Source of the DNA: Candidatus Woesearchaeota archaeon
GTDB lineage: Archaea; Nanobdellota; Nanobdellia; Woesearchaeales; UBA11576
Direction of reading: 5' to 3'
NCBI GenBank assembly: GCA_003695435.1
Contig: RFJL01000051.1
Location: 1 to 35,326 of the forward strand
Length of the DNA stretch: 35,326 bases
Shown here: one piece after another, positions 19,051 through 22,813 of the stretch
Layout of the letters: each line of letters starts with the position of its first letter
Position numbering within the stretch: the first letter of the stretch is position 1
Position numbers and translations under genes: made by a program
Notes under the pieces: generated by a model
What the model was told of the DNA's origin: nothing
Database searches by the model: none
The model's input: only the letters and a program-made list of their open reading frames with translations

Positions 19051-20526
19051 ATGGGATCAAAGTATAAGGATATGGACAAAAGCACGGTTATTCTGTACTA
19101 CAAACGTCCCGAGATTCAAGAAGCAATAGCATCATTTGCCCAAAACAAGGAAGTTGTGGGAAGTTTTGGGGGAAAAGGCTATGCAAAACGCCCCGATATC
19201 TTACAATTTCCTAGTGATGTGTTCTCACAAGTACAAAGAGGGATCACCTCCTTTCACATGTCTGAAGAAACCTGGCTTAACCCCTTGCTTCTTGAGCCAG
19301 GAATGAAACGAGCAGACCAAGACGATCTACGAATAGGGTGGGATCTTATTTTAGATATTGATTCAAAACTCTTTGACTGTTCTCAATTCGCTGCAGATCT
19401 CATTGTTCAAGCACTTAGATACCACGCTATTACTTCAGTGACAGTTAAGTTCTCAGGAAATCATGGCTTTCACATAGCTGTTCCTTTTGAAGCTTTTCCT
19501 CAAATTGTTGATGGAACACCCACAAAAAACTTGTTCCCAGAAGGACCCAAAAAAATTGCAGAATATCTCAATGACATGATTAAAGAACACCTAAAAAAGA
19601 AAATTCTTGAAAAGTACTCCGTTGCTCAGCTTTGCAATCTTCTACAGCTAAAAAAAGAAGATGTTGAACTTCGCGGAGAGTTCAACCCGTTCTCAATAGT
19701 TGATATTGACACTATTCTCATCTCTTCGCGCCATCTGTTCAGAATGCCATACTCTCTTAATGAGAAATCAGGGCTGGTATCCATTCCAGTTGATCCCTCA
19801 AAGATATTATCATTTAACCGCGAAGATGCGCGCCCTGAAAACGTGCGTGTTGAAGTGCCGTTTCTTAATAGATCTCAAGCAAAATTTGATGAGGCTAAAA
19901 AACTCTTCATCGCAGCGTTTGACTTTGTAGCACCACAACAAACAATCCTCGTAGAATCGTCGGAGAAAACATCTTCTGTGGATTTTGAACAATTACAAAA
20001 CAAAGTGCCCGAAGAATTATTCCCTCCTTGCATCAAAACAATTTTAAGAGGAATTCCTGACGGGAAAAAAAGAGCGTTGTTCATCCTTGTCAATTTTTTG
20101 CGCTCATGCGGTTGGACATATGAAGACATTGAGGAGCGCTTACTCGAGTGGAATACTCTCAATCCCGAACCCTTGCGAGAAGTCCAACTAAAAGGACACA
20201 TACGGTATCATCGCCAGTCAAAAAAAGCGGTTCTTCCTCCCAATTGCGATAACAAGGCATACTACAAAGACCTTGGCTTTTGTACTCCTGATAATTTCTG
20301 CTCGAGGATAAAAAACCCCGCAACGTATGCGAGAAAGAAAAGCTTCTTAATAGAACAACACGCTTCAAAACAAAAGAAAAATCAAAAAAAGGATTTGAAA
20401 AAAGAGCAGAAACAACAAGGATCATCAGATCAACAAGATCATTCAAGCCTTTCAACAAAAATTCAAGAGTCCCAGGAAGTAACTCATGAGTCAAAAACGA
20501 AGACAAAAACAAATGAATCGCAGTGA
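19051..20526 (+). CDS. Fused DNA primase (PriS catalytic domain + PriL Fe-S domain)
   Basis: 491 aa. Residues about 1-290 are the archaeo-eukaryotic primase catalytic domain: metal-binding Asp102/Asp104 in LILDIDSK, the nucleotide-binding SGNHGFHI (135-142), and SSRHLFRMPYSL (225-236). There is no zinc-stem cysteine cluster. Residues about 315-425 match the PriL C-terminal Fe-S domain, with C327 (PPCIKTIL), C399, C411 and C417 as candidate [4Fe-4S] ligands and the usual GKKRALFILVNFLRSCGW helix. The PriL N-terminal scaffold is missing. N. equitans and other DPANN archaea have similar single-chain primases. A Lys/Gln-rich disordered tail (430-491) ends it, overlapping the next gene. Confidence 0.92.
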   Translation: MGSKYKDMDKSTVILYYKRPEIQEAIASFAQNKEVVGSFGGKGYAKRPDILQFPSDVFSQVQRGITSFHMSEETWLNPLLLEPGMKRADQDDLRIGWDLILDIDSKLFDCSQFAADLIVQALRYHAITSVTVKFSGNHGFHIAVPFEAFPQIVDGTPTKNLFPEGPKKIAEYLNDMIKEHLKKKILEKYSVAQLCNLLQLKKEDVELRGEFNPFSIVDIDTILISSRHLFRMPYSLNEKSGLVSIPVDPSKILSFNREDARPENVRVEVPFLNRSQAKFDEAKKLFIAAFDFVAPQQTILVESSEKTSSVDFEQLQNKVPEELFPPCIKTILRGIPDGKKRALFILVNFLRSCGWTYEDIEERLLEWNTLNPEPLREVQLKGHIRYHRQSKKAVLPPNCDNKAYYKDLGFCTPDNFCSRIKNPATYARKKSFLIEQHASKQKKNQKKDLKKEQKQQGSSDQQDHSSLSTKIQESQEVTHESKTKTKTNESQ

Positions 20527-21457
20527 TCTCCATTCACGCGATCTTCTCAAGGAATTTCGCATCGCATATGGCTTCTTGCTTTTCCTTGTGTTTTTTGCAC
20601 CAATAATCCTTCAAATCTTCGCATTACTCTTCCATCACGTTCTTTGGTACACGGTAATCTTTGAGAGACTCCACATTCTAGCGTTTATTCTGTTTGGTTT
20701 ATTTTTTCTCATGGACGAGGAGAGGTTGTTGCCAAATTATGTGCGATGCAAGGACAGAAAAAAAGAAGCACTGATGTTTGGGTTTCTAAGCATAACGTTC
20801 CTTGTACAGTACTATGTGTGGCGTTATGGTTACGCAACGAGTCAGGAAAATTGGTTCTACTCGTTTACCGGCTCGTCCATAACCTACTCTTTTTTCATTT
20901 TCTTTATTTCCATTGCGATGTTAGGAATTTCTTTTTGGCAAAAGACGGTAAAAAACGAGTGGAAGAAACTCGTAGCGCTTGCAGGATTTGTGATCGTCTA
21001 TCGTTTCATCAAAGTGTTCTTCACAAAGAACTGGCAATATTTCTCAAATATGGTTAATCAAATCGCAGTCAAATTTCTCTCCCTTTTTTATGATGCCGCG
21101 GCGAGTTCGGGGCATGAAACACCTTTACTGCGCGTAAATGATTTCTCTGTTATTATTGCAAGGGATTGTTCAGGAATAGAATCTGCAACACTCTTCCTCT
21201 TTCTTTTTGCAATTGTTCTTTTTTTTGATGACTCTTTACGAAAGGATGCAAAGACCTTCACACTACTCGCAGTAGGGGTTGCAGGCGCGTTCATTCTTAC
21301 AGCGATACGAGTTATTATCCTAAGCATTATCGGCGTTGAGTTTAGCGCCGATTTCGCAGTGACGAGTTTTCATGCAAACATTGGTTGGGTGCTCTTTGTT
21401 TTCTACGTATTTGCTTATTACGCACTGCTTAAGAAGTACTGTGCGCGCGGAGAATAA
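20486..21457 (+). CDS. Archaeosortase/exosortase-family membrane protein
   Basis: 323 aa with about eight membrane helices. The exosortase/archaeosortase triad is clear: Cys228 in IIARDCSGIES, Arg275 in ILTAIRVIIL and His296 in SFHANIGW. These membrane transpeptidases recognise a C-terminal tripartite tail (short motif, helix, basic end) on exported proteins, cut it, and attach the protein to lipid or cell-wall material. No protein with such a tail is in this window. The gene overlaps the primase 3' end by 41 bases, so they share a transcript. ATG 20513 is an alternative; an AGGAAGT before 20486 favours the longer form. Confidence 0.88.
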   Translation: MSQKRRQKQMNRSDLHSRDLLKEFRIAYGFLLFLVFFAPIILQIFALLFHHVLWYTVIFERLHILAFILFGLFFLMDEERLLPNYVRCKDRKKEALMFGFLSITFLVQYYVWRYGYATSQENWFYSFTGSSITYSFFIFFISIAMLGISFWQKTVKNEWKKLVALAGFVIVYRFIKVFFTKNWQYFSNMVNQIAVKFLSLFYDAAASSGHETPLLRVNDFSVIIARDCSGIESATLFLFLFAIVLFFDDSLRKDAKTFTLLAVGVAGAFILTAIRVIILSIIGVEFSADFAVTSFHANIGWVLFVFYVFAYYALLKKYCARGE

Positions 21458-21529: not shown

Positions 21530-21620
21530 TGTGTTGCGAGCGTGGTTTTTTCATCAGTTTTCGTAACGGGTGTGCAAAAAGAGGCAGTAACTACAAGCAA
21601 ACAGTGCGCCAAATAGGAAT

Positions 21621-21631
21621 CTTTATAAATA
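21621..21631 (+). promoter_or_regulatory. TATA box of the ribosomal protein operon
   Basis: CTTTATAAATA is the best TATA match upstream of uL3, about 204 nt before its ATG. Initiation around 25 nt downstream would give a leader of about 175-180 nt. Confidence 0.6.
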
Positions 21632-21650
21632 CTTCAATTGATTTCGAAGT

Positions 21651-21829
21651 CAAACTCAATAAGCCACTAAAACCAGAAAAAAAGAGTTTTAGTGAAGAAA
21701 ACCACAAAAAAAGCCTGAAAAGAGCGTTTTCAGAGTAAATCTTGGAAAAGATTCTGAAAAATCCCCAAAAACGCTCAGGAATAGGCGGGGGAGACGTATC
21801 CAACTCTTTCTCAGGCGTTTAACAATACT
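21651..21829 (+). promoter_or_regulatory. Structured leader of the ribosomal protein operon
   Basis: Several hairpins can be drawn. H1: CACTAAAAC/GTTTTAGTG (21665-21673 with 21686-21694, 9 bp). H2: CTGAAAA/TTTTCAG (21715-21721 with 21727-21733). H3: AATCTT-GGAA-AAGATT (21738-21753). The right arm of H2 extended by one base (TTTTCAGA, 21727-21734) can instead pair with TCTGAAAA (21753-21760), enclosing a shortened H3, so H2 and the enclosing helix exclude one another. Nearer uL3, TCCCC/GGGGA (21762-21766 with 21788-21792) and AAACGC/GCGTTT (21769-21774 with 21815-21820) are also possible but conflict in part. No known riboswitch or r-protein leader is recognised. Confidence 0.5.
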
Positions 21830-22813
21830 ATGCCAAAAGCACATAAACCACGTTCAGGAAGTATGCAATTCTGGCCAAGAGTCAGAGCTAAAAGACCCTA
21901 TGCTCGTGTACGCACGTTTGTAAAAGCATCAGAGGCGAAACTTCTTGGTTTTCCTGGATACAAGGCGGGAATGACCCATTGCATAATCACGGAAAATCGA
22001 AAACACTCACCTAACAAAGGATCTGATGTTGCAGTTCCAGCAACCATTATTGAATGCCCTCCTGTCCGTATTGCAGGCGTGAGAACCTACAAACGAGCAT
22101 ATCTAGGACTTCGCGCAAAAGATACTGTAATGGCAAAACAAAGCAAAGAAATCACAAGAAAACTTCCCGTTCAGAAAAAAGAACACGCCCTTGATAAGAT
22201 CAACCTCGAAGAAATCGAGGAAATTCGCGCAATCGTTGAGACTCAGCCAAAACTCACAGGAATTGGAAAGAAAAAACCTGAAGTCTTTGAAATGGCTGTT
22301 GGTGGCTCCAAAGAAGATCAATTTAACTTTCTCAAAGAACACTTCGGAAAAGAAGTGTCTGTAGCAGATGTTCTTGGAGAAGGCCAACAAGTTGATGTGT
22401 TCGCAATCACCAAAGGAAAGGGATACCAAGGCCCTGTCAAGCGATTCGGAATCGGATTACGCGCAAAAAAATCAGAGAAAACTAAACGTGGTCCAGGATC
22501 TCTTGGAGGATGGAAAGGTCACGCTCACTTTATGTATAGAATCGCTCACGCAGGTCAGATGGGATACCACCAACGTGTTGATTACAATAAACAAATCCTC
22601 AAAATCTCTTCGGATCCTCAAGAAGTAAATCCCAAAGGAGGTCTTGTTAATTTCGGTCTTGTCAAGAACACCTATGTTCTTGTAAGAGGTTCCGTTCCCG
22701 GACCAAAAAAAAGGCTCTTACGACTTGAGCCTGCTCGAAGACCTAATCCTAAAATAGAGGATCAAACCCCCACAATCCAAAGCATTAGTACACGCTCACA
22801 ACAAAGAAGATAA
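21830..22813 (+). CDS. rpl3: Ribosomal protein uL3
   Basis: 327 aa, normal archaeal length. The N-terminal MPKAHKPRSGSMQFWPRVRAK opening and LGFPGYKAGMTH belong to archaeal/eukaryotic L3; the central loop that reaches the peptidyl transferase centre is seen in VKRFGIGLRAKKSEKTKRGPG and GQMGYHQRVDYNKQIL. uL3 nucleates early 50S assembly. It is the first gene of a 24-gene cluster ending with uL15 and follows a long structured leader, so it is the natural place for operon feedback control. uL4 starts 8 nt later. Confidence 0.97.
   Translation: MPKAHKPRSGSMQFWPRVRAKRPYARVRTFVKASEAKLLGFPGYKAGMTHCIITENRKHSPNKGSDVAVPATIIECPPVRIAGVRTYKRAYLGLRAKDTVMAKQSKEITRKLPVQKKEHALDKINLEEIEEIRAIVETQPKLTGIGKKKPEVFEMAVGGSKEDQFNFLKEHFGKEVSVADVLGEGQQVDVFAITKGKGYQGPVKRFGIGLRAKKSEKTKRGPGSLGGWKGHAHFMYRIAHAGQMGYHQRVDYNKQILKISSDPQEVNPKGGLVNFGLVKNTYVLVRGSVPGPKKRLLRLEPARRPNPKIEDQTPTIQSISTRSQQRR

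Follow-up and report, generated by a model that had tools for sequence, protein, structure and literature searches.

A predicted structured leader RNA with two mutually exclusive folds upstream of the uL3 ribosomal protein operon of Woesearchaeales

The uL3 operon leader in the window

The first gene of a ribosomal protein operon, rpl3 (uL3), is preceded by a long leader in the window, which is the whole 35,326-nt stretch of Woesearchaeales DNA that was analysed. The question raised by this locus is whether the leader is a regulatory RNA and, if it is, how it would act on the operon. DPANN archaea are for the most part uncultured and their genomes are very small; the host genome of the window comprises 899,557 bases. 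To our knowledge, few archaeal cis-regulatory RNAs are known and an attenuator-like layout is rare in archaea.

All features described here are on the forward strand. The predicted promoter of the uL3 operon contains a TATA box (TCTTTATAAATA, 21620–21631) identified from the sequence, and archaeal spacing from this box would place the transcription start at approximately 21648–21652. The leader of about 180 nt (21651–21829) is located between the TATA box and the AUG of uL3 at 21830. A start just before uL3, named in the initial annotation as evidence against such a leader, does not agree with the predicted TATA box, which puts the start near 21650. Among 65 representative relatives, a [CT]TTATA[AT] box is found 50–115 nt upstream of the conserved leader core in 86% and within or just downstream of the core in 6%. 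The rpl3 gene (21830–22813) is the first gene of the operon and its product matches Pfam Ribosomal_L3 (E 1e-68). The gene that follows encodes uL4 (Pfam Ribosomal_L4, E 6e-37), and the operon continues in the order uL3-uL4-uL23-uL2 and onwards. Just upstream of the leader, 20486–21457 encodes an exosortase/archaeosortase-like membrane protein (Pfam Exosortase_EpsH, E 5e-13). The single ORF at 19051–20523 contains both DNA_primase_S (residues 126–248) and DNA_primase_lrg (residues 296–421) Pfam domains and is predicted to be a fused primase with both subunits matched.

The minimum free energy of the RNA from 21640 to 21850 is -46.6 kcal/mol vs -33 +/- 3.75 kcal/mol in dinucleotide shuffles, none of which was as stable (0/200, z -3.63). 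The initial annotation had described a leader of about 180 nt with three hairpins and alternative pairings, all of which are present in the sequence. The 5' hairpin, P0, is a 9-bp pairing of CACTAAAAC with GTTTTAGTG (21665–21673/21686–21694) identified by sequence complementarity. Hairpin A is a 7-bp stem of CUGAAAA and UUUUCAG around a GAGCG loop (21715–21721/21727–21733) and represents the alternative, 5'-proximal fold. The GGAA-loop hairpin, P3, has the form AAUCUU-GGAA-AAGAUU (21738–21753). The rival pairing for the UUUUCAG arm belongs to helix P2, whose 5' strand (21722–21734) is made up of an outer GAGCG and an inner UUUUCAGA. The inner pairing of TTTTCAGA with TCTGAAAA has 8 bp (21727–21734/21753–21760), and its 3' strand UCUGAAAA (21753–21760), which has the homologue UUGAAAAA in leaders L004 and L007 of the same family, is the rival of hairpin A for pairing with UUUUCAGA.

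Several elements go beyond the initial annotation. These are P1, the outer arm of P2, the UUCU element and a distal GCCTGA partner, TCAGGC, at 21811–21816. P1 pairs GCCU with AGGC (GCCT/AGGC in the DNA) at 21713–21716/21783–21786 and is part of the conserved core, its 3' strand lying within a conserved AAUAGGC (21780–21786). The outer arm of P2 is GAGCG[TTTT]/[AAAA]CGCTC (21722–21730/21768–21776), with the 3' strand AAAACGCUC (21768–21776) recognised by complementarity and placed by covariance model alignment. The conserved UUCU is located at 21752–21755. The distal competitor UUCUCAGGCGUUU (21808–21820) can pair with GCCUGAAAAGAG of the core, with 85% complementarity over 13 nt; the UCAGGC that it contains is a third partner for GCCUGA and can displace P1. 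This distal helix is present in the predicted minimum free energy fold of the window leader and lies approximately 10–15 nt upstream of the AUG. In one related genus, four leaders (L003, L004, L006, L007) likewise carry a UCAGGC, as UCAGGCUAG.

Conservation and covariation in relatives

Upstream DNA of uL3 from 58 related genomes was compared on the coding strand, and a shared pattern is observed that consists of a 5' hairpin, GCCUGAAAAG, a variable segment, UUUUCAGUAC, a hairpin, UUCU, a second variable segment and AnAAWAGGC, after which UUUUU is often seen. Training on 25 relatives, with the window excluded, gave a covariance model that matches the window blind at 21712–21787 (36.9 bits, E 3e-8). 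The model matches 190 of 353 Woesearchaeales genomes, nearly always with one copy per genome, and about half of the 353 are without a match under the faster filters used at a threshold of E 0.01. The next gene on the same strand is uL3 for 155 of the 156 distinct copies, and the remaining copy is at a contig end. A class-wide sample of 378 genomes gave 50 matches, all but one from the same order. The sole match outside the order (G590) is marginal (E 9e-4) and is probably due to chance, as it is located on a different contig from the uL3 gene of that genome. The DNA upstream of uL3 at locus L053 (G038) is unlike the other leaders; it resembles bacterial DNA and carries a GC-rich inverted repeat, so that this metagenome-assembled genome is possibly an assembly chimera.

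The structured leader proposed in the initial annotation is borne out by the relatives, in which the pairing segments are both conserved and covarying. Over 84 diverse copies, P1, P2 and P3 together show 267 double-change cells vs 92 +/- 9 in shuffles and 38–53 in slid controls, and this is accompanied by the link to uL3 at 155 of 156 loci. P1 is paired in 94.7% over the 84 sequences, and P2 has 180 double-change cells vs 65 in shuffles. An alignment-free partner-swap test, in which helix partners were exchanged among 65 representatives, gave z values of -17.1 for P2, -10.6 for P3, -5.5 for a further helix, X, and -2.9 for hairpin A; the controls were close to zero. With 32 stricter representatives, P2, P3 and X were matched in 0 of 2000 permutations and hairpin A in 76 of 2000. 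The strongest support is for P2; the covariation signal is overwhelming in P1, P2 and P3, clear in helix X and weaker in hairpin A. Comparative data show the RNA, these helices and the association with uL3, and the element is a structured RNA conserved across Woesearchaeales, an order of tiny archaea.

Helix X joins the approximately 15 nt that precede the core to the strand following CAGU, and it re-pairs the 5' strand of P3. It is clear in part of the leader set, with examples such as CUAAAC/GUUUAG, CAUAAC/GUUAUG, GGAUAA/UUAUCC and AGGAA/UUCCU. Hairpin A of at least 6 bp is possible in 127 of 131 relatives with the CAG(U)AC element, and its compensatory changes are few but real. The P0 site in relatives is occupied by hairpins of unrelated sequence with a mean folding z of -2.27, compared with -0.20 in a control region 5' of the TATA box. 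A conserved leader peptide was considered and rejected, as core lengths fall in all three residues modulo 3 and each frame has stops in 38–64 of 65 cores.

The residues of the P1-P2-P3 fold that are both unpaired and invariant are GAAAA, UUCU and AAWA. The letters of UUCU (columns 104–107) are each present in 79–82 of 82 aligned sequences, and AAUAGGC (columns 137–143) is nearly invariant. Approximately 25 of 156 copies lack CAGUAC and with it hairpin A, and these copies retain CUGAAAAG and UUCU, for which reason the P1/P2 internal loop together with UUCU is interpreted as the probable recognition site.

Other orders of the class have uL3 leaders that are built differently, and ATTCT is present in 22 of 27 of these vs 5.6 expected, for example in the form CGCUGAUUCUAGA...GGCGA. 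The common ATTCT/UUCU suggests an older shared recognition element, and its presence in differently built leaders offers a route to the ligand. Two conserved leader types are seen approximately 40–110 nt upstream of uL3 in these other orders (L203–L231), the first being GCGTTGCT...CGCTTATTCT...GATTGCACACCCTGAAAAGGATGCAATC and the second CGCTGATTCTAGA..GGCGA with GATGTCTTAAG. Conserved-looking uL3 leaders are also observed up to about 150 nt upstream in Altiarchaeota (L038, L042) and Nanohalarchaeota (L040, L043), with the elements AAGAGCAGTTTTT..GCTGCTATGCTTTTC..GAAGGCCTATGGC and the paired hairpins CCCAGGTTCTGGGC / GCCTCnTnnGAGGC.

Exclusive folds, proposed mechanism and alternative readings

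P2 also takes in residues of the 3' arm of hairpin A, with columns 23–26 paired in 84–90% of sequences. The overlap with the hairpin A stem has a median of 6 nt and reaches 3 nt or more in 57 of 62 leaders; the two folds are therefore mutually exclusive, and the claim of the initial annotation that the UUUUCAG arm can enter only one of its two pairings holds for most relatives. As P2 overlaps hairpin A and helix X uses the strand that forms the 5' side of P3, P1-P2-P3 and X-plus-hairpin-A are alternative states. The median equilibrium advantage of P1-P2-P3 over hairpin A is 6.9 kcal/mol, so hairpin A/X would be a transient state that is either kinetic or held by protein, and a leader with a single state could give a similar picture.

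The family has the layout of an attenuator or terminator, namely a stem with an immediate oligo-U, and also an alternative fold that is predicted to be exclusive with the terminator-like fold, with helix X covarying. The U fraction is 0.55–0.83 over the five positions after P1 and then falls to about 0.2, and at least four consecutive U directly follow P1 in 55% of copies, vs about 3% further downstream. Both the exclusivity and the U-run are shown by comparison. Pairing of the U-run with an upstream A-rich stretch as an extension of P1 was also considered and was set aside as the explanation, its signal being marginal (z -2.0, controls near -1). Archaeal termination signals are U-tracts of at least four residues and do not strictly need a hairpin (PMC8716108), and expression in Methanococcus is set by terminators inside ribosomal protein operons (PMC10450193).

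In the window copy P0, P1, hairpin A, P2, P3 and UUCU are all present, CAGUAC is replaced by CAGAGUA, the 3' strand of P2 has an insertion at about 21761–21768, and helix X is absent. After P1 it shows GGGGGAG where relatives have oligo-U. Given the absence of the U-run and helix X and the presence of the distal UCAGGC, regulation in the window organism may differ in detail; the U-run is lost there, and control may be exerted through the distal pairing or at translation.

On balance, the reading that we favour is a cis-acting ribosomal protein leader RNA with two exclusive folds, which probably serves feedback attenuation by uL4 or uL3. It is placed between the promoter and the uL3-uL4-uL23-uL2 operon, and through it the cell would throttle its own ribosomal protein output. 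We infer the following folding order, ligand, sign of regulation and termination. During transcription P0 would form first and hairpin A next, in many species with helix X beneath it. When the downstream strand emerges, P2 would invade hairpin A through its loop, and closure of P1-P2-P3 would coincide with the arrival of the polymerase at the U-run. Free uL4 (or uL3) would bind the P1-P2-P3 fold, which carries the invariant GAAAA, UUCU and AAWA, and expression would be low in this state; the hairpin A/X fold would permit continued transcription.

By precedent, uL4 would be the first candidate ligand and uL3 the second. At every locus examined uL4 follows uL3, and gene order does not tell the two apart as ligand. 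No convincing 23S rRNA mimic of the leader was seen in nine 23S sequences. GCCTGAAAAG is present in two of the nine (L193, L199), apparently in a variable hairpin, and not in the other seven, and a domain I stretch, CTGGAAAG...CCCGTA, faintly resembles CUGAAAAG...CAGUAC of the leader.

The loop of hairpin A (median 5 nt) is the outer portion of the 5' strand of P2 and both pairings are kept, which would suit an H-type pseudoknot in which hairpin A and P2 coexist. This arrangement is unlikely, since P2 reaches into the 3' arm of that hairpin in most members by the overlap given above, and since in L022 hairpin A has 9 bp and a 3-nt loop and P2 has 11 bp, so that the two are impossible together. 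It is also unlikely, to a lesser degree, that the leader is a structured 5' UTR that serves mRNA stability, processing or fixed early termination, with no ligand switch and with hairpin A as a folding intermediate. Such a UTR would agree with the stability advantage of P1-P2-P3 and with the weak covariation of hairpin A; however, the invariant unpaired residues point to a binding site, covariation of helix X involves the strand that P3 also uses, which is needless for a one-fold element, and the tie to a single ribosomal protein operon is strict.

A leader that acts on translation only, with the bound fold or the distal helix masking the uL3 start region and the U-run being incidental, deserves somewhat more weight and is still judged fairly improbable. 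The distance from the leader end to the AUG is 10–178 nt with a median of 56, the window has the distal helix near its AUG and no U-run, and archaeal L7Ae leaders are proposed to act on translation (PMC5539422). This is countered by the sharp positioning of the U-run directly after P1 in most members and by the very variable gap to the AUG, with no conserved pairing with the start region observed. Chance complementarity in an A/T-rich spacer could be suggested by the A/U-rich arms, but it is refuted by the comparative data, namely the folding z of -3.6, the blind model match, the uL3 association at 155 of 156 copies and the covariation, and its probability is negligible.

The favoured leader RNA can be extended to a bolder and more tentative reading, in which a bistable attenuator RNA is flipped by a ribosomal protein to end transcription and the leaders of other orders were rebuilt, retaining the UUCU recognition element on a replaced scaffold. 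If true, the bistable attenuator would be an early archaeal example of transcription attenuation under protein control. At least 190 genomes of a single order have the element, which is strictly tied to one operon, and the U-run and the two exclusive folds make protein-driven transcription attenuation in archaea testable with short RNAs and purified uL3 and uL4.

Comparison with known ribosomal protein leaders

The leader shows two of the features by which r-leaders are generally recognised, namely a covarying secondary structure and a consistent 5' UTR position before ribosomal protein genes. No Rfam family matches the window leader above the gathering threshold, relaxed thresholds gave no match either, and a search of open-access papers found none on Woesearchaeota or DPANN leaders. 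The archaeal L7Ae k-turn leaders (PMC5539422) resemble it as a case of ribosomal protein autoregulation through leader RNA, and differ in belonging to a different operon and in their proposed action on translation. No k-turn (tandem G.A pairs adjoining a 3-nt bulge) was seen by eye in the conserved core, and the k-turn or C/D box idea was dropped on this inspection only. The S15 leaders of Methanomicrobia and Halobacteria are likewise archaeal r-leaders and differ in gene, structure and lineage; those of Methanomicrobia are followed by poly-U, which their authors suggest as possible termination signals (PMC7247131).

The S10 leader of E. coli allows L4 to repress the operon at both transcription and translation (PMC7186457). 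The two systems have in common an orthologous downstream cluster, a terminator-like U-run after a stem and a protein of the operon as the proposed feedback ligand. In contrast, the E. coli leader works with bacterial machinery, homology in sequence or structure would not be expected, and feedback is proven there and inferred for Woesearchaeales.

The L4-Archaeoglobi leader (Rfam RF03135; Eckert and Weinberg 2020) is predicted for the same operon with L4 as the proposed ligand and is rated borderline by its authors (PMC7247131). The initial annotation had known of no described leader of this kind for the archaeal uL3 operon, which is wrong in part in view of this prediction, although the structure and the lineage are different. 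RF03135 is unmatched in the window at the gathering threshold, in the leader at E up to 5 and in 11 relatives at E up to 1; the model does detect an Archaeoglobaceae locus with uL3 (L037). Both RNAs are structured leaders of an archaeal rplC-rplD-rplW-rplB operon, whereas the closing stem of L4-Archaeoglobi, CUGAcggac...UAAccgUCAG, encloses two inner hairpins and belongs to another lineage. R-leaders are known and one is already predicted for this operon; the kind is therefore known, and the Woesearchaeales leader appears to be new.
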